Below the pieces are notes generated by a model that was given only the letters and a program-made list of their open reading frames with translations, searched no databases and was not told the DNA's origin. Below, one piece after another: positions 1 through 12,771 of a DNA stretch of 64,000 bases; the stretch's first letter is position 1, and each line of letters opens with the position of its first letter. The stretch covers positions 62,001 to 126,000 of the forward strand of contig JAJYIQ010000001.1 in the NCBI GenBank assembly GCA_021789995.1. Reading direction: 5' to 3'. The position numbers and the translations under genes are program-made. Source of the DNA: a bacterium (GTDB taxonomy: Bacteria > Patescibacteriota > Microgenomatia > UBA1406 > GWC2-37-13).

Positions 1-216
1 ATTATCGTCGGATTTTTAGCGGGAAAACTTATCGGCGTTGTGCTTTCCGCCTTTGCCGTTTTTAAAGGTGTCGGGTTTATTGACGTTTCAACCATTCCCT
101 TGCCGTTTGCCATTCTGGTCATGTTCCTCTCGCTTCTAGTCGGGGTGACCACCGGCATTTATCCGGCCAAACGGGCAACAAAAATTTCCGCACTTAATGC
201 CTTACGGTATGAATAA
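1..216 (+). CDS. ABC transporter permease, C-terminal end (MacB/FtsX type), partial
   Basis: This is the last 71 residues of a membrane protein whose start lies left of the window. It shows one clear hydrophobic segment (ILVMFLSLLVGVTTGIYPA) and ends in ...KRATKISALNALRYE. This tail is the usual C-terminus of MacB/FtsX-family permeases, where the last transmembrane helix is followed by a YPAxRAAxxxPxxALRYE motif. Such permeases pair with a cytoplasmic ATPase and drive export or lipoprotein release across the membrane. The substrate cannot be told from this fragment. The stop codon overlaps the start of the next gene. Confidence 0.8.
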   Translation: MIVGFLAGKLIGVVLSAFAVFKGVGFIDVSTIPLPFAILVMFLSLLVGVTTGIYPAKRATKISALNALRYE

Positions 217-472
217 CATCACAACCAAAATTCGTAACCTGTTTCGTAAAGAAAAATCGGTCAATGGAGCAAAAAATCCAAAACGTATGTACAGTATTGC
301 CGAGGCCTCGGAAATTACCGGAGTCGGAAAAAGTACCATATATGCGCTGGTCAAGTCGGGAACAATTCCATCGCTTCAACTGCAGGAGCACGGAAATTTC
401 CGCATCGCAGATACAGAGTTAGAGCATATTAAAGCGCTTACTGCATCATCGTCTTTGCCGGAAAAGCTGTAG
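209..472 (+). CDS. Small helix-turn-helix DNA-binding protein (excisionase/MerR-like)
   Basis: An 87-residue protein. I chose the ATG at 209, which overlaps the stop of the ABC permease (ATGAATAA), over an in-frame ATG 12 bases upstream. Residues about 27-75 carry a MerR/excisionase-type winged HTH: MYSIAEASEITGVGKSTIYALVK, then a segment with IPSLQLQEHGNFRI leading into a last helix. The family binds DNA at recombination sites or promoters. The translational overlap suggests co-expression with the permease and a role in its regulation. A phage excisionase role is possible but no integrase is visible. Confidence 0.65.
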   Translation: MNNITTKIRNLFRKEKSVNGAKNPKRMYSIAEASEITGVGKSTIYALVKSGTIPSLQLQEHGNFRIADTELEHIKALTASSSLPEKL

Positions 473-726
473 GGATAACTCCGGTGAATGATATAAATCC
501 TTTTATTTTAGAGAAAAAGTACCGCAATGATCCTTCGTATATTATTGTATAGCAACGTTTTTTTAATCTGCATAAAACCCACCTTTTGATAGATGTTTTG
601 AGAACCCGCGATATAATTAGAAGGCAGGACAGGACAAAGCAGATTAAGCGTGTAAAGCCATAATGAGTTCAAATTTAATATTATCTGTTGCTATTTACGC
701 TATAATGCTGTACTATTTACGCAACC
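473..726. other. Intergenic stretch upstream of lexA
   Basis: No credible gene of normal size. A GTG-initiated 22-codon frame (484-552, encoding NDINPFILEKKYRNDPSYIIV and then a stop) reads like the beginning of a lost gene, but this is weak. The right end holds the lexA promoter and a direct repeat, listed separately. The base composition turns AT-rich from here to about 4.0 kb. Confidence 0.4.
691..722 (+). promoter_or_regulatory. lexA promoter with direct-repeat operator candidate
   Basis: A perfect -10 box TATAAT lies at 701-706, 20 bases before the lexA ATG. It is bracketed by two exact copies of CTATTTACGC at 691-700 and 713-722, centres 22 bases (about two helical turns) apart. No good -35 is visible. 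The arrangement fits autorepression by LexA binding a direct repeat, as known for some non-Gram-positive LexA lineages. The binding itself is inference. Confidence 0.5.
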
Positions 727-1353
727 ATGAAAAAGACATTAACTGCCGCTCAAAAAAGGGTTATCGCTGTGATCCAAGATCTCTCTCGAAAGATGGGACA
801 TTCACCCACACTTGAGGAATTAAGAGTGGCACTTAAACTGGCTAGTACCAGTTCCGTTCAGCGTCATATTGAAGCCCTACGAAAGAAAGGGGTCATAACT
901 GGAGAGAAACATCAGGCCCGAAATATCGAACTTAATATCGAGTTAGAGCAAACGGTTAATATCCCTGTAGTTGGTAACGTTGCTTGTGGTGTTCCTATTT
1001 TGGCCGTCCAGAACATTGTAGCCTATATCCCCTATAAGAAATCACTACTGCATGGTAGAAGCGCCGATGACTATTTTTTTCTTAAAGCTGTTGGAGACAG
1101 TATGAATGCTTCCTCTCCAATAATTAATGATGGCGACTATGTCCTTGTAAAAAAGCAGAGTGTTGCCGTCCCAGGTCAAAGAGTTGTTGCGTTAATAGGA
1201 GACGAGGCCACTATTAAGAAGTTTAAAAAGGCTAATAATCACTATATTCTTGAGCCAGAGTCTACTAACTCTACCAATAAACCAATTTACGTATTTGCAG
1301 ATTTGTTTATTCAGGGAATTGTACAAGATGTAATCAAGAAAGGAGGGGAATAA
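727..1353 (+). CDS. lexA: LexA repressor, SOS regulator with S24 self-cleaving domain
   Basis: A 208-residue protein of the length and two-domain plan usual for LexA. Residues 1-70 form the winged HTH (LTAAQKRVIAVIQDLS ... SPTLEELRVALKLASTSSVQRHIEALRKKGVI). Residues 78-205 form the S24 peptidase domain. The self-cleavage bond would be Cys87-Gly88 (VACGVP) rather than the Ala-Gly of E. coli. The nucleophile is Ser125 in GDSM and the general base Lys164 in ATIKKF. LexA represses DNA-damage genes until RecA filaments trigger cleavage. It heads an AT-rich run of five small or defence-like genes with tight spacing, so it may control that island rather than a genome-wide SOS response. Confidence 0.9.
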   Translation: MKKTLTAAQKRVIAVIQDLSRKMGHSPTLEELRVALKLASTSSVQRHIEALRKKGVITGEKHQARNIELNIELEQTVNIPVVGNVACGVPILAVQNIVAYIPYKKSLLHGRSADDYFFLKAVGDSMNASSPIINDGDYVLVKKQSVAVPGQRVVALIGDEATIKKFKKANNHYILEPESTNSTNKPIYVFADLFIQGIVQDVIKKGGE

Positions 1354-1355
1354 AA

Positions 1356-1577
1356 ATGCCGTTAGGAAAACACAAAAAAACAAACGAAGGAACCATACGG
1401 AAAGAACGAGGCGATTCTTTAGTAAAAAACCTCAAACAAGATTATCCGGTCCTTGGAAAGTTTGACGGACGAACGAAACTAGAAACTTTACGAGATAGAT
1501 ATGGAGTAGATTCTCTTGATCAACTTTTGAAAAAGTTGAAAAAAAAATATGAGACTCAAAGACAACAAACTTTTTGA
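1356..1577 (+). CDS. Small basic hypothetical protein downstream of lexA
   Basis: 73 residues, starting two bases after the lexA stop behind a strong Shine-Dalgarno (AAGGAGGGG), so it is translated with lexA. The protein is very lysine-rich (MPLGKHKKTNEGTIRKERGD at the N-terminus) with a C-terminal helix ending LLKKLKKKYETQRQQTF. No family is recognised. The last codons contain a run of nine A (1539-1547) where the next frame begins. A short basic protein after a repressor could be a DNA-binding partner, but that is a guess. Confidence 0.6.
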   Translation: MPLGKHKKTNEGTIRKERGDSLVKNLKQDYPVLGKFDGRTKLETLRDRYGVDSLDQLLKKLKKKYETQRQQTF

Positions 1578-1812
1578 ACTGCCAGAGCTTATGGGTGGTT
1601 CTTTTAGTGGGATAGATAGATTAGAAATCCCATACAATATTCTCATACTAAGAAAGGTATTACAACGAGATGATAACGGAGATATTGAACTGGGTTGCAA
1701 AGCAAATGACGGCCCAGAGGAGAAAAGAGGCGGAGTACGTTTTACTATTGATGACCGAGCAAGAAAGATCAACTATTTCATTGGTTTCAACAACAAATTG
1801 GTAAAGATATAG
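1549..1812 (+). CDS. Small hypothetical protein overlapping the preceding frame
   Basis: 87 residues in the +1 frame relative to the preceding ORF, overlapping it by 29 bases. There is no Shine-Dalgarno before its ATG; instead the A9 run directly precedes it. Loss of one A, or +1 slippage on this run, would fuse the two frames into a single protein of about 150 residues. The sequence (LFELPELMGGSFSGIDRLEI, then a KRGGVRFTIDDRARKINYFI stretch) looks like a compact beta-rich domain. No family is recognised. It may be a real coupled gene or the second half of a frameshifted one. Confidence 0.45.
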   Translation: MRLKDNKLFELPELMGGSFSGIDRLEIPYNILILRKVLQRDDNGDIELGCKANDGPEEKRGGVRFTIDDRARKINYFIGFNNKLVKI

Positions 1813-1855
1813 AAACTATTTATGAATGTGACTTTAGTTTCGGAGGTGAGGTTAT

Positions 1856-2008
1856 ATGAAAAAATGCCCAAAGTGTAAATCTGAAATGTTTATAAGTATG
1901 GAACCCAAAGTGGCAAATCTTGCCAATAGCAACAGCAAGTTCCCATATCAATCTGAGTACTGGCGTTGCAGTAATAAGAAATGCAGTTATAAGGAAAAAT
2001 CAACTTAA
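1856..2008 (+). CDS. 50-residue zinc-ribbon protein
   Basis: A short gene with a good ribosome site (GGAGGTGAG) six bases before its ATG. The protein starts MKKCPKCKSEM and ends WRCSNKKCSYKEKST. The two CxxC-like knuckles (CPKC near residue 4 and CSNKKC near residue 39) are the pattern of a zinc ribbon. Such mini-ribbons often act as nucleic-acid-binding or partner subunits. It sits five bases before the Shedu-like gene and shares its strand and base composition, so it is probably part of the same transcription unit. Confidence 0.65.
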   Translation: MKKCPKCKSEMFISMEPKVANLANSNSKFPYQSEYWRCSNKKCSYKEKST

Positions 2009-2013
2009 ACATT

Positions 2014-3396
2014 ATGCCTGTAAAAACTTTAGCAAAATTCATTTACGATTCATTGATAGCTGCAAACTGGCCTGGGATTGAATTAGACGAAGAGAAACAA
2101 ACTGTTAAGATCCCCAATGGGGAGATTTTGACGTTAAATAAAAGCCAATATCAACTTAACTTTTACTGGTATTCATTTGACAACAGAACATATTCTCAGA
2201 GAGAAAGGTATGCCCAGATAATTTTTCCAAAAGATTTTGACATAAGAAATTTCATTTTTTTCAAAAGAAACGGCAGCTATAAATTATCCCATGAACAGCA
2301 ATTTAAAAATATTCTTAATCCTTTAGGTAGAGACATCAAAAAGGTAAAACTGAATCCTGAATACAAAGGGTTAAAATTCTATAAGAATCTTTTAATTCTT
2401 CCCACTACAATATTTCTTCAGGCAATGACCGATGCGGAATATGTTTATAAGAAAAGTGCTTCGTATCGGAGCTCTACTGAAAACTATTTGTCCAATCTAA
2501 AATCACATGATTACAGTAGAAACGTCAGAAATAGAACAACTTATTTAGAAAAGGGAGAATTTGATTTTTTAGTTGACCGTTTATACATTAAATCAAAGAA
2601 GAAAAAAAATGATTTTTTAAAATATCTAGATGGCAACGACCTTAAGGCTATCGAACTATTAATTACAAAATTGCTCCGACTAGATGTATTATCAGACGAT
2701 TTTTTAAGGAGATTAAATGATTATTTTATTAAAGAACGTTTGAGAGATATTATTCAAATTGGTAGAAGCATTTTATCTCTTAAAACCACAAATCTTCAAA
2801 CCACTGCTGCGAGGCAGGTTCTTGCAAATATGGGTATTACAGAAACTGGACAGCTTGAATCTGTCTGGCAAAGATACTTTGAAAAAAACCTACTCTACTT
2901 GATATTTACATATAAAAAAATCTTTTCAAAAATCCAACTTAAAGACGTAGAAGGTGATAAGAAATATCCTGACTTTATTGGAATAAATCATTACAATGGA
3001 TTAGATATCATTGAGATAAAAACTCATCTTAAAAACGCATTGATTTGGGATAATAGCCACAGGAATTTTTATTTTTCCCCAGAAATGAGTAAGGCCATCG
3101 TTCAAACGACTAATTATATCGACGCCATAGTTCAGTCCAGATTTCAGAACACTGATGATCAGATGAAAATAACTCAATTTACTGATGAGGAGAATTTATA
3201 TCATCCAAGAGGAATTATTGTAATTTCTTCACAAGCGAAATTGTCTACAAAGGTAGATGAAGGTGAAAAACTTAAGAGAGATTTTACAAAATTAAGAAAC
3301 AGCTTGCACAACATAGAGATCTTAACATTCGATGAAATAATAAATATTGCCGATGAATATATTAAAAATATTATACCGGAGGTGACTAATGGATAA
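2014..3396 (+). CDS. Shedu-like (SduA, DUF4263) anti-phage nuclease candidate
   Basis: 460 residues. The C-terminal part (about 280-450) carries a PD-(D/E)xK nuclease core of the Shedu/DUF4263 kind: an entry helix with ESVWQRYFEKNLLYLIF, then YPDFIGIN with Asp320, then GLDIIEIKTH with Glu334 and Lys336, then a helix with the conserved Gln (MSKAIVQTTNYIDAI, Gln364). The last segment (RGIIVISSQA ... NIEILTFDEII) matches the strand-helix end of that fold. The N-terminal 270 residues have no recognised domain; in Shedu proteins this part is variable and thought to sense the trigger. The family degrades nucleic acid during phage infection. The gene is AT-rich, lies after lexA and a zinc-ribbon peptide, and overlaps the next gene by eight bases. 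Confidence 0.75.
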   Translation: MPVKTLAKFIYDSLIAANWPGIELDEEKQTVKIPNGEILTLNKSQYQLNFYWYSFDNRTYSQRERYAQIIFPKDFDIRNFIFFKRNGSYKLSHEQQFKNILNPLGRDIKKVKLNPEYKGLKFYKNLLILPTTIFLQAMTDAEYVYKKSASYRSSTENYLSNLKSHDYSRNVRNRTTYLEKGEFDFLVDRLYIKSKKKKNDFLKYLDGNDLKAIELLITKLLRLDVLSDDFLRRLNDYFIKERLRDIIQIGRSILSLKTTNLQTTAARQVLANMGITETGQLESVWQRYFEKNLLYLIFTYKKIFSKIQLKDVEGDKKYPDFIGINHYNGLDIIEIKTHLKNALIWDNSHRNFYFSPEMSKAIVQTTNYIDAIVQSRFQNTDDQMKITQFTDEENLYHPRGIIVISSQAKLSTKVDEGEKLKRDFTKLRNSLHNIEILTFDEIINIADEYIKNIIPEVTNG

Positions 3397-3703
3397 CTTA
3401 ATTGACCAAAAAATGAAGAATGTTTTAAAGAATCTTAGAGAAGCTCATACTCACTCTGAAAAGTTCTGTGCCAAGCAGTTAAACCCGGGAGAACCAGTTA
3501 AACCAATGGATATTTATGATATGGCTTTAGCATTTGAAAGCGAACAAAGACTTTTAATTGACTTGGAGCTAGTGCGAAGTGAGAAATATCCAGATTGGTA
3601 TACGCCAGAAAAAGTAGAATCATTGAGAAAAGAACGGGATCGATTGACTCATAGAATTCGTGCTTGGCAAAATAGACAATTTCCAAGTCAATATAAAGAC
3701 TAG
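3389..3703 (+). CDS. Small helical protein coupled to the Shedu-like nuclease
   Basis: 104 residues, overlapping the nuclease gene by eight bases and preceded by GGAGGTG, so the two are translationally coupled. The sequence is hydrophilic and almost all alpha-helical. Its last third (EKVESLRKERDRLTHRIRAWQNRQF) looks like a coiled coil. No family is recognised. Shedu systems are normally single-gene, so a dedicated partner would be unusual. It could be a regulatory, inhibitory or immunity subunit; the sequence does not say which. Confidence 0.6.
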   Translation: MDNLIDQKMKNVLKNLREAHTHSEKFCAKQLNPGEPVKPMDIYDMALAFESEQRLLIDLELVRSEKYPDWYTPEKVESLRKERDRLTHRIRAWQNRQFPSQYKD

Positions 3704-4009: not shown

Positions 4010-4360
4010 ATGAAGAAAATCACTGCGCTTAACATACTTATCACACTTTCAATGCTTACCGTTGCCAGTCCCGTTTTTGCCGACACCGCCGGTGTTACCC
4101 AGATCCAAACCTTCATCCAAAGCGTCATCCAGGTCTTAGTCACGTTAGCAGGACTTGTGTCTGCCGCTTTTTTTGTGTGGGGAGGGTTCGGATATATCAC
4201 GAGTTCCGGCAATCCGGAAGCGCTTGATAAGTCCAAGAAAACCATTTTGTATTCAGCAATCGGATTGACAGTCGTTTTGGGGGCGTTTGTCCTCTCAAAC
4301 ATTGTCTCCCAGCTGGCCGGAACAGCGTTTGGTACCAGTACCACGGCTGTTACCCATTAA
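4010..4360 (+). CDS. VirB2/TrbC-like pilin
   Basis: 116 residues. I chose the ATG at 4010 because it follows GAGAGGGGGTGG and opens a proper signal peptide (residues 1-24, cut after ...ASPVFA). The mature protein has two transmembrane helices (about 37-60 and 80-103) joined by a polar loop with SSGNPEALDKSKKT. This is the plan of VirB2/TrbC pilins, which assemble into the conjugation or DNA-uptake pilus of type IV secretion systems. It is the first gene of a colinear cluster with PrgI and VirB4 homologues. CPR bacteria often carry such clusters, whose actual substrate is unknown. Confidence 0.8.
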   Translation: MKKITALNILITLSMLTVASPVFADTAGVTQIQTFIQSVIQVLVTLAGLVSAAFFVWGGFGYITSSGNPEALDKSKKTILYSAIGLTVVLGAFVLSNIVSQLAGTAFGTSTTAVTH

Positions 4361-9226: not shown

Positions 9227-9826
9227 TTAAAACCTACCTAGTAGATCTTTTTGTTCAAATTCGTATTCCATTTCTCCGAAATTAGATAGGCTATTCCAGT
9301 AACAGCCACTAAGTTTATTTTCCTTAGGAAGCTTTTTTATTTTTGATGTACCTCGGTGTTTTGCCATTGTTCCAGTTTTTAACGAACTCGGATCATTGTC
9401 GTATGTATAAAATAAATATACCTCACCATTTAGATCCGAAAAGTCCGCAATGACGCTCTCAGAATTTGACCGACCATAATAGGCACTAATATTAATTTTA
9501 GAGAAGGTTTGCTTAATTTCTAGCCTCCCTTCTCCTGATACATTCTGGCCATTTTCTTGGTGTGATGAACGTTGTCTACCCTTCCATCTGCCATTTAAAT
9601 CTGGGTACCAGACAATTCCTAATTGTCTAAATATGTCGATTTTCCACAAGTAGCTATCAAATAGATAAAATATTATGCTGTAAATCAGTAAAGGGGACGG
9701 ACCCTCAAGCCAGTTTGGCCATTTAGTGAAAAAGTTAAAAAGCGCGCTTGATACAGACAGGCTTACTAAGGGTATTATGATACCGAATAAAAATAGATGG
9801 CTAGATTTAGAAAAATTAACTCCCAT
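9227..9826 (-). CDS. cap15: Cap15-like CBASS effector: two membrane helices plus beta-barrel
   Basis: 199 residues. Two membrane helices lie at about 10-33 and 45-62. They are followed by a soluble beta-rich domain that begins with the lipocalin-like signature PDLNGRWKG (75-83) and continues with alternating strands (GEGRLEIKQTFSKINISAYY, SVIADFSDLNGEVYLFYTY). This is the plan of Cap15, the S-2TM-beta effector of CBASS. There the barrel binds a cyclic nucleotide and the helices then disrupt the inner membrane. It lies one base downstream of a CD-NTase on the same strand, which is the classic synthase-effector order. Assignment rests on architecture and context; a profile search would settle it. 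Confidence 0.75.
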   Translation of the reverse strand: MGVNFSKSSHLFLFGIIIPLVSLSVSSALFNFFTKWPNWLEGPSPLLIYSIIFYLFDSYLWKIDIFRQLGIVWYPDLNGRWKGRQRSSHQENGQNVSGEGRLEIKQTFSKINISAYYGRSNSESVIADFSDLNGEVYLFYTYDNDPSSLKTGTMAKHRGTSKIKKLPKENKLSGCYWNSLSNFGEMEYEFEQKDLLGRF

Positions 9827-9827
9827 A

Positions 9828-10727
9828 TTAATTATTTAAATAATAGTTTTCTACGGCCGTAAAGAAATTTGATGCGTCAGCAGTATTCCATTGCCAAGAT
9901 TCCAAGCCAAATAATGAATGCTGATGGCTGACCGTTAATAGAATCGACGGATTGCACTGCCTTAAAAGATGATTTAATACATATCCTAGGGAATTTTGAT
10001 GATTTCCAGTAAAATGGCCATCAGGCACGTTATATACCGCACATTCGATGAAATAGGAGGGAGCTATTTTAGGATCCAAATTATTGTTTTCTACCAATCT
10101 TTTTTTAATATTTTTAACTATTCTGACAACATCTTTGTATCTTTCATTAGTACGATGCTGGGCATTTTTATCTTCGCCGTTTGACCTATGTGCTTTTGGG
10201 TAATTTATAATTTCCTTACTTTCGCGGATAGTCCAAAATTTTATACCTTCGATAAAGTCTTTCTTGTTAATTAAACTGAAGTTGTTGTAATTTCTAAATT
10301 GTAGGCAGGGTACTATATCTGCATTTAATAAGTTGCTGTCGCCTAGAAGCTTTATGCTTTTGTTCCCAGGCACAATTTTTTCTTGCCCGAAAAAGGTAAC
10401 TAAGGCGTTAATCACATCTTGCCTAAAATTAATCCAAGAGTAGGTTGAATTCGAATATGTAATATGAAACAGGCTTTTCTCGACTTCGTTTAACTTCGAA
10501 AGGTTGTATTGAAAAGCCGAGCTTAATTGAACCACAATATCAACATCACTATCAGCTTTTATATTAGTGCTATTTGCATAAGACCCTTGAAGATACACCT
10601 CAAAATTCTTGCCGCTCAGACCGATACCCTGCGCTAAGGCTTCTCTTATTTGTTGATGAGTGTATTGGGGTTTTGTACTTGCCGGAGAATTGGTCCAAGT
10701 TAAAAGTTGATCATTACTTATCGTCAT
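9828..10727 (-). CDS. CD-NTase (cGAS/DncV-like nucleotidyltransferase) of a CBASS operon
   Basis: 299 residues from the ATG at 10727; a TTG seven codons upstream is the alternative. The nucleotidyltransferase core shows GS at 48-49 (LQGSYAN), the metal-binding Asp61 and Asp63 (DSDVDIVV) and the third Asp137 (NADIVPC). The rest is helical, with KNAQHRTNERYKDVVRIVKN and PSYFIECAVYNVPDGHF typical of the C-terminal domain of SMODS enzymes. Such enzymes make a cyclic di- or trinucleotide when phage infects, and the signal activates the effector encoded directly downstream. The clade and product cannot be told by eye. No Cap2/Cap3 ubiquitin-like or HORMA/TRIP genes are present, so this would be a minimal two-gene type I system. 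Confidence 0.85.
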   Translation of the reverse strand: MTISNDQLLTWTNSPASTKPQYTHQQIREALAQGIGLSGKNFEVYLQGSYANSTNIKADSDVDIVVQLSSAFQYNLSKLNEVEKSLFHITYSNSTYSWINFRQDVINALVTFFGQEKIVPGNKSIKLLGDSNLLNADIVPCLQFRNYNNFSLINKKDFIEGIKFWTIRESKEIINYPKAHRSNGEDKNAQHRTNERYKDVVRIVKNIKKRLVENNNLDPKIAPSYFIECAVYNVPDGHFTGNHQNSLGYVLNHLLRQCNPSILLTVSHQHSLFGLESWQWNTADASNFFTAVENYYLNN

Positions 10728-10821
10728 ATTTAAGATGAATTTTATCAAAAAACCAGGCTAAATCATAGAAGAAAACTATCTCTATTTGTTATATAATCAA
10801 TTTAGCATTCTTAAGTTTTTT

Positions 10822-11717: not shown

Positions 11718-11924
11718 ATGGGATCAAAAGAAGAAATTTCAAAAAAACTAAAACAAGGCAGGGAACAGATGGGTTTAACCCAGATGGAAGTTGCCGAAAA
11801 AGCGAATATTAGCGTAAATTATTATGCTCGCATTGAGCGTGGAGAAGTCAGTCCGTCTTTAGAAACCTTAAAGGATTTAATGCGGATTCTAAAAATTAAA
11901 AGTTTGAAGATTTCAAATCGTTAG
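11718..11924 (+). CDS. XRE-family transcriptional regulator, single HTH domain
   Basis: 68 residues, nine bases after the transglutaminase-like gene. The whole protein is one Cro/C1-type HTH: ISKKLKQGREQMGLTQMEVA, EKANISVNYYARIERGEVSP, SLETLKDLMRILKI. Such minimal repressors usually control their own operon. The gene ends inside the end of the convergent small gene on the other strand (four-base overlap). Confidence 0.85.
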   Translation: MGSKEEISKKLKQGREQMGLTQMEVAEKANISVNYYARIERGEVSPSLETLKDLMRILKIKSLKISNR

Positions 11925-12127
11925 TTCAGTTTGTTATTTTCTTCCTTGTTTTTGAGTTGGCCGCTTTTCTTATCCTTTGCTACTTTTCCAATAACCATAT
12001 TCTCAAAATCTTTAAACGTATCCAGCAACTTAATAGCGCGTTCCCGGGTCAGCTCCTTTACGCCTTTTTTACGAAGTTCTTCAAGCGCCCAGTTTATTTG
12101 TTCCTCGGAATAGTTTGTTTTACTCAT
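11921..12127 (-). CDS. Small hydrophilic hypothetical protein
   Basis: 68 residues from the ATG at 12127; an upstream ATG at 12136 would add MDK. The N-terminal half (YSEEQINWALEELRKKGVKE, then LTRERAIKLLDTFKDFENMV) forms two helices, and the C-terminal tail is lysine-rich and probably disordered. No family is recognised. It is the last gene of a minus-strand run that includes the PLD-family protein. Confidence 0.5.
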   Translation of the reverse strand: MSKTNYSEEQINWALEELRKKGVKELTRERAIKLLDTFKDFENMVIGKVAKDKKSGQLKNKEENNKLN

Positions 12128-12142
12128 CTTGTCCATTATACA

Positions 12143-12583
12143 TCAAAGGAATTTATAAAGTTTTAAGAACCGAAACATCTCTGTCGCTGTTTCACCATCG
12201 TCAATCCGTCTCATAATTTCCCGGCTGCGCGTTTGCGACAATATATTCAGGCTACCTTCCCAGAGAACGCTTCTATCCAAAATAGCCAGTTTCCGATGAT
12301 GATTACCGGTGCATAGTAAAACCTGTATCCCGACACTTTCACACCATCTTATGGCGTCTTCCGATTGCGGCTCCATGAATTCATCGTGTTCTTGAGGATC
12401 ACGGGTAAAGATGTAGATTTTTACGTCTCTTTTTAGTAATTTTTGAAAAATGCGATCAAACGTTCCCATCCGTTCACGGGTAATAAACGGGGATTCAATG
12501 ATGACTTCACTGTTGCAACGCTCTAAGTCACGGAGGAACGTTTGATAAAAGGTTTTTTCGTCAAAAAGGGAGGATTTATTCAT
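12143..12583 (-). CDS. Phospholipase D-like protein with one HKD motif
   Basis: 146 residues behind a strong ribosome site (AAGGAGGAG). The protein has the PLD fold: an N-terminal strand-helix unit (EVIIESPFIT) and the catalytic HKD motif at His96-x-Lys98-x4-Asp103, followed by EGSLNIL. A single HKD means it must act as a dimer. The PLD superfamily includes lipases and nucleases such as Nuc and the BfiI restriction enzyme. The small size and lack of a signal peptide favour a cytoplasmic nuclease, which fits an accessory region, but substrate is not proven. Confidence 0.75.
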   Translation of the reverse strand: MNKSSLFDEKTFYQTFLRDLERCNSEVIIESPFITRERMGTFDRIFQKLLKRDVKIYIFTRDPQEHDEFMEPQSEDAIRWCESVGIQVLLCTGNHHRKLAILDRSVLWEGSLNILSQTRSREIMRRIDDGETATEMFRFLKLYKFL

Positions 12584-12771
12584 TTTGGCTCCTCCTTTCC
12601 TGGTTCAATTATGGATACGTTTCCGTTATAATAAGTAAAGCCCAGCACTCGAAGTTTGTTGTAAACCCGGATCAAACTCTCAAATAAGGGGTTCCAAACG
12701 TGGGACAGCTGGCTCACCGACTTTACTTCGATAATGAATATTCTCCTCTGACTGCGCCGCCGGCAAACCAA
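12580..12771 (-). CDS. Small hypothetical protein coupled to the PLD gene
   Basis: Up to 63 residues, ending four bases inside the start of the PLD gene (ATGA overlap). The only start is a TTG at 12771, which lies within the upstream gene, so the true start is uncertain. The fragment IFIIEVKSVSQLSHVW resembles the EVK core of a restriction-nuclease-type fold and could be the tail of a degraded domain. No family is assigned. Confidence 0.35.
   Translation of the reverse strand: MVCRRRSQRRIFIIEVKSVSQLSHVWNPLFESLIRVYNKLRVLGFTYYNGNVSIIEPGKEEPK

Follow-up and report, generated by a model that had tools for sequence, protein, structure and literature searches.

The window analysed here, a 64,000-nucleotide stretch of a Microgenomatia genome (contig JAJYIQ010000001.1, positions 62,001 to 126,000), contains at positions 727-3703 an island of six genes that probably constitutes a Shedu operon repressed by its own LexA protein and derepressed by DNA damage. 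Judged from sequence and gene neighbourhood, this operon most likely belongs to a family of patescibacterial defence cassettes in which LexA is the switch and which would act like the CapW/BrxR, CapH-CapP and CapK-CapS controllers. An earlier reading of the same letters (the original prediction) had proposed a DNA-damage-triggered defence module, which remains the reading with the best support, given that members of the LexA clade of the window stand before unrelated defence operons; what recurs is the regulator itself and not its pairing with Shedu. Our check of the open reading frames (ORFs) and their coordinates bore out the tight gene row that had been described, except that it comprises six co-directional genes and not five:

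691..722, plus strand: candidate LexA operator, a perfect direct repeat of CTATTTACGC with copies at 691-700 and 713-722
727..1353, plus strand: LexA-type repressor of 208 residues, winged helix-turn-helix (HTH) and S24 autoprotease, cleavage site C87-G88, Ser125, Lys164
1356..1577, plus strand: basic ORF of 73 residues directly 3' of lexA, without a family match
1549..1812, plus strand: accessory protein of 87 residues, whose family elsewhere adjoins restriction-modification (R-M) genes
1856..2008, plus strand: zinc ribbon of 50 residues (CxxC...CxxxxC), with weak zinc-ribbon family matches only (E>=0.004)
2014..3396, plus strand: SduA-like nuclease of 460 residues, variable N-terminal region and DUF4263 PD-(D/E)xK core (D320, E334-x-K336, Q364)
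3389..3703, plus strand: protein of 104 residues, whose start overlaps the sduA stop by 8 bp

The gaps between these genes, in order from lexA to the 104-residue gene, measure 2, -29, 43, 5 and -8 bp.

The evidence that carries this interpretation comes from the relatives of the regulator. The window LexA falls into a clade of five members (support 99/96) that spans three bacterial families and one IMG/VR viral contig; its four relatives (L112, L113, L114 and L152) are 55-59% identical to it, and in a class-level search the clade matches are well separated from the next ones (E 1e-64 vs 2e-32). Clade members were picked on LexA similarity only, not on their neighbours, and all five of them head a defence operon, each a different one:

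Window: Shedu operon
L112: DUF2188 gene, two ThsB_TIR genes and a SLATT protein, behind type III R-M genes
L113: CD-NTase (2e-75) and NucC (2e-88), a cyclic-oligonucleotide-based anti-phage signalling system (CBASS)
L114: CD-NTase (3e-100) and an effector with two transmembrane segments (2TM; 7e-38), a CBASS-2TM
L152: SMODS/AGS_C cyclase (1.7e-180), 1TM effector (1.7e-55) and DUF2130, an AGS-type CBASS

The pattern extends beyond the clade: LexAs of the next tier head a Pycsar operon in L169 (PycC 1e-65, PycTM 1e-25) and multiubiquitin-ThiF-DUF6527 operons in L160 and L161, and more distant, unfused LexAs head R-M operons that contain Vsr with a C5 methylase, an Eco57I-type enzyme with a C5 methylase, an N6 methylase with HsdS, or an N4/N6 methylase. 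One regulator family thus stands before several unrelated defence systems, and because close relatives front several other anti-virus systems, LexA seems to have been co-opted as a mobile on-switch of immunity.

The assignment of the regulator to the LexA family, as originally predicted, is secure: The protein matches TIGR00498 (E=6.5e-44, 150 bits, above the curated cut-off of 111), both LexA Pfam domains (PF01726 and PF00717) are found, and solved LexA proteins align along its length. This alignment shows an intact Ser125-Lys164 dyad; the cleavage dipeptide C87-G88 is likewise retained, being the same in L112 and L114 and Ala-Gly in L113 and Escherichia coli LexA. Cleavage dipeptide and catalytic Ser/Lys are in fact kept in every defence-linked LexA that we inspected, and the host encodes RecA (E=1.8e-129). 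In its domains, cleavage site and dyad the window protein therefore resembles a canonical LexA of the SOS response, from which it nevertheless differs in being the second LexA of its genome and in lying outside the canonical clades. The other LexA of the host, a frame of 192 residues near a DinB-like gene, groups with LexAs of its own family (support 100/100), and like the canonical uvr and recA groups, whose LexA genes adjoin housekeeping genes as read from sequence, it forms a clade separate from that of the window. By this phylogeny, the window LexA is distinct from the chromosomal LexA of its host.

A further difference from the canonical case concerns the operator. The predicted repeat at 691-722 proved to be a perfect 10-bp direct repeat of 22 bp start to start, whose second copy ends 4 bp before the lexA ATG; shuffling the upstream stretch 2000 times matched it in 7 cases, and a scan for the pair, with up to 3 mismatches allowed, returned this single occurrence in the 898-kb genome. 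The four aligned clade promoters have in common a TTGCATAATTACGCTAT-like sequence across the -35 element and spacer, at the same position as the repeat. We rejected the 22-bp-spaced repeat as a clade-wide feature, as the perfect pair of copies is found in the window alone.

The nuclease, too, was correctly anticipated as Shedu-like: The C-terminal part, residues 282-442, matches DUF4263 (SduA_C, PF14082) with E=3.7e-21 and a score of 76 bits, where the cut-off is 27, and it also matches the PADLOC SduA profile at 1e-16. D320, E334, K336 and Q364 are conserved in six SduA homologues from different loci. The N-terminal region has no family match, and a comparison with PDB sequences gave no match for SduA; an AlphaFold model built from a two-row alignment had a mean predicted local distance difference test score of 39 and was not used. 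The sole full-length homologue, in L034, is 47% identical, with the nuclease core far more conserved than the N-terminus, and is accompanied by a serine-recombinase-like gene and Mod/Res-like genes. SduA matches are rare, occurring in just 3 of 144 relatives including the genome of the window; other SduA genes of Patescibacteria sit in type I R-M-like operons, and one, in L118, lies near a fusion of LexA with a C5 methylase. A direct search for relatives of SduA in viral contigs and plasmids found none.

Taken together, these features suggest a mechanism in which we infer LexA binding, LexA cleavage, induction and anti-phage action. The island would be a horizontally acquired defence operon with a single promoter. 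In the resting cell, the cassette LexA would occupy the repeated operator over its own promoter, thereby holding down the whole operon, that is LexA itself, the accessory proteins and the nuclease. Phage attack or DNA damage would generate single-stranded DNA on which host RecA forms filaments; these would prompt the cassette LexA to cut itself at C87-G88, which would derepress the operon, whereupon SduA and the accessory proteins could attack foreign or broken DNA.

Several observations weigh against such a DNA-damage-derepressed Shedu operon. The exact form of LexA with Shedu was observed once, and the SduA homologue of L034 comes without lexA and without the small genes. The gene combination that had been described is not conserved in the neighbourhood comparison, in which the exact set occurs in the window only (among the relatives searched, LexA, zinc ribbon, Shedu and the 104-residue protein have no second instance). 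Homologues always lacking lexA and the small genes were the outcome that the original prediction considered damaging; the findings go half that way for the gene set, yet the link to the regulator has become stronger. On the side of the promoter, the clade mates retain the core across -35 element and spacer but lack the second repeat copy, a sigma-70 scan of the island gave promoter-like matches at the rate of shuffled sequence and was not used, and a cryptic internal promoter may drive sduA.

The position of lexA as first gene, with the repeats over its own promoter, would also fit a LexA that serves as an autoregulator only, like the C proteins of R-M systems, ensuring low basal expression and allowing a burst when the operon arrives in a new host, with DNA damage not being the physiological signal. 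Related LexAs moreover head R-M systems or are fused to their enzymes, and in such systems a delay of expression is important. We nonetheless regard this explanation as unlikely, given that all inspected defence-linked LexAs keep a cleavage dipeptide and Ser/Lys pair that a pure autorepressor would not need. Alternatively, LexA might be the SOS-responsive maintenance repressor of a mobile element, comparable to CI, and the defence genes co-transcribed passengers, for which rexAB, co-transcribed with lambda cI, is the model. In L113, L114 and L169 LexA indeed stands back to back with ParB-TerS-TerL-like genes, and a serine-recombinase-like gene is found near LexA in L113; the window, L112 and L152, however, have no divergent element genes, and their own operon is the only obvious LexA target there, which makes this alternative quite improbable. 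Mere chance, by which LexA and SduA, both mobile, would have landed at the same hotspot without a functional link, might be invoked because the island lies in an apparent cargo site, flanked by an FtsX-type permease gene and VirB2, and because SduA is also encountered in the absence of LexA. This seems highly improbable for genes that are tightly spaced, partly overlapping and co-directional, and for a clade whose members, selected on LexA similarity alone, are associated with defence operons in five of five cases.

Among LexAs of the class that are more distant there is a second branch, in which all 15 proteins labelled as methyltransferase fusions (L037-L039, L041, L118-L124, L127, L129-L131) consist of LexA_DNA_bind, Peptidase_S24 and a DNA methylase domain. 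The latter is of the C5 type in two, N4/N6 in ten, N6/Eco57I in two and D12 in one of them; a sixteenth fusion, in L128, has a C-terminus without an identified family, and a gene of the MvaI/BcnI endonuclease family adjoins three of the fusion genes. Since the direct repeat TTCG-N7-TTC or its complement lies within 100 bp of the start in half of the fusion promoters (8 of 16, against a shuffle mean of 0.14), the fusion genes are probably self-regulating. We are inclined, if only somewhat, to regard LexA as a modular immune switch that moves horizontally in Patescibacteria: one clade would be placed before CBASS, TIR/SLATT and Shedu genes, related LexAs before Pycsar and multiubiquitin operons, and another branch would be fused to methyltransferases, in which case DNA damage would sever the methyltransferase from the repressor that it carries. 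Should LexA serve many types of defence as their dedicated switch, immunity would be coupled straight to the SOS signal without the need for a further sensor protein, and a searchable LexA family would be a marker for new defence operons; the fusions suggest a testable route from DNA damage to the control of R-M. Two open questions are touched thereby, namely the means of defence of Patescibacteria with their tiny cells and reduced genomes, and the silencing of costly defence systems until they are called for.

Small promoter-side regulators of unrelated immune operons, for which DNA damage has been proposed as trigger, are known (PMC13373217, PMC9122588, PMC9122601), and the window LexA resembles CapW/BrxR, CapH with CapP and CapK with CapS in that a small regulator fronts CBASS, Pycsar, Thoeris-like, ubiquitin-like and R-M operons. 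In contrast to these controllers, the regulator here is a LexA of winged HTH and self-cleaving S24 domain, not a WYL protein, an HTH protein with a metalloprotease or a kinase pair; among the island proteins there is no WYL match as in CapW/BrxR, no metalloprotease family match as in CapH-CapP and no kinase or STAS match as in CapK-CapS (HTH-STAS-GHKL kinase and STAS-winged HTH repressor). From type II R-M C proteins and HTH-fused methyltransferases, which share with the LexA relatives the principle of a local repressor that is fused to R-M enzymes or encoded beside them, the latter differ in carrying a self-cleaving domain and in being fused N-terminally to C5, N4/N6, Eco57I-type and D12 methyltransferases. 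Shedu is portrayed, as relayed in PMC12137116, as a single nuclease core combined with a diversity of sensor domains (Gu et al. 2025), and the window SduA, with its C-terminal D-ExK-Q core and divergent N-terminus, is like Shedu type I; but Shedu has been described as a one-gene system, and sduA here is the fifth of six genes in an operon that has a LexA of its own. By family the regulator belongs to the LexAs; the role that we infer for it is that of an immune-operon controller. The word LexA is absent from PMC13373217, and the open-licence literature yielded no description of a LexA-headed CBASS or Shedu operon or of a LexA-methyltransferase fusion, which does not prove its absence.

As for the accessory genes, the 87-residue protein has relatives in three settings: L185, where the gene follows a type ISP R-M gene, L184, a methyltransferase-like island, and L055, an R-M operon headed by LexA. 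Of the relatives of the 104-residue protein, the one in L182 comes directly after a type IIG-like R-M gene, whereas the one in L183 has no neighbours with an obvious role in defence; neither protein has relatives in viral contigs. A gene for 69-79 residues, of various DUFs, comes after LexA in several relatives: It lies directly 3' of LexA at 8995-9231 in L112, 8611-8832 in L113, 8628-8834 in L168 and 7705-7923 in L169, and its families differ (DUF2188, YjzC-like, DUF1508, DUF3892). A yegP gene beside CapK/CapS regulators has likewise been noted (PMC13373217).

The island is bordered by the following genes:

1..216, plus strand: C-terminus of an FtsX-type ABC permease, left border of the insertion site
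197..472, plus strand: HTH_17 protein of 91 residues, overlapping the permease end; the island starts after this gene
4010..4360, plus strand: VirB2/TrbC-like, first gene of a type IV secretion system (T4SS) locus and right border, named from sequence and position

The shared base composition contrasting with the flanks that had been attributed to the island applies in part: With a GC content of 0.31-0.40 against about 0.48 downstream, the island is AT-rich relative to the T4SS genes (0.47-0.48; whole window 0.42), but since lexA (0.40) is intermediate and sduA has 0.31, composition is not uniform. In G089 (L116), permease and VirB2 are only 133 bp apart, a spacing which indicates an unoccupied site, and in G086 (L039) the same interval carries a LexA-methyltransferase fusion with neighbour genes. 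Because it is empty in the one and filled with a different LexA-linked cassette in the other, the interval between FtsX-type permease and VirB2 looks like a cargo hotspot.

ParB-like and small and large terminase-like genes, both called from sequence, lie by LexA-headed cargo in L113 (10240-13461), L114 (9748-13019), L125 (2169-5422) and L169 (3406-6647); these loci possibly represent a phage-like element specialised in the carriage of defence genes. A short CBASS pair, likewise AT-rich (GC 0.35-0.36), follows the T4SS locus of the window at 9227-10748 on the minus strand, comprising a 2TM effector (PDLC00703, 6e-53) and a CD-NTase (PDLC00788, 5e-100); with the Shedu operon on one side and this pair on the other, the T4SS thus has defence genes on both flanks. 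Finally, window positions 11718-12771 encode an HTH protein, small ORFs and a phospholipase-D-like protein and are similar to a block at 15835-16885 of L113, near the LexA-CBASS operon, with which they may form a shared mobile module.

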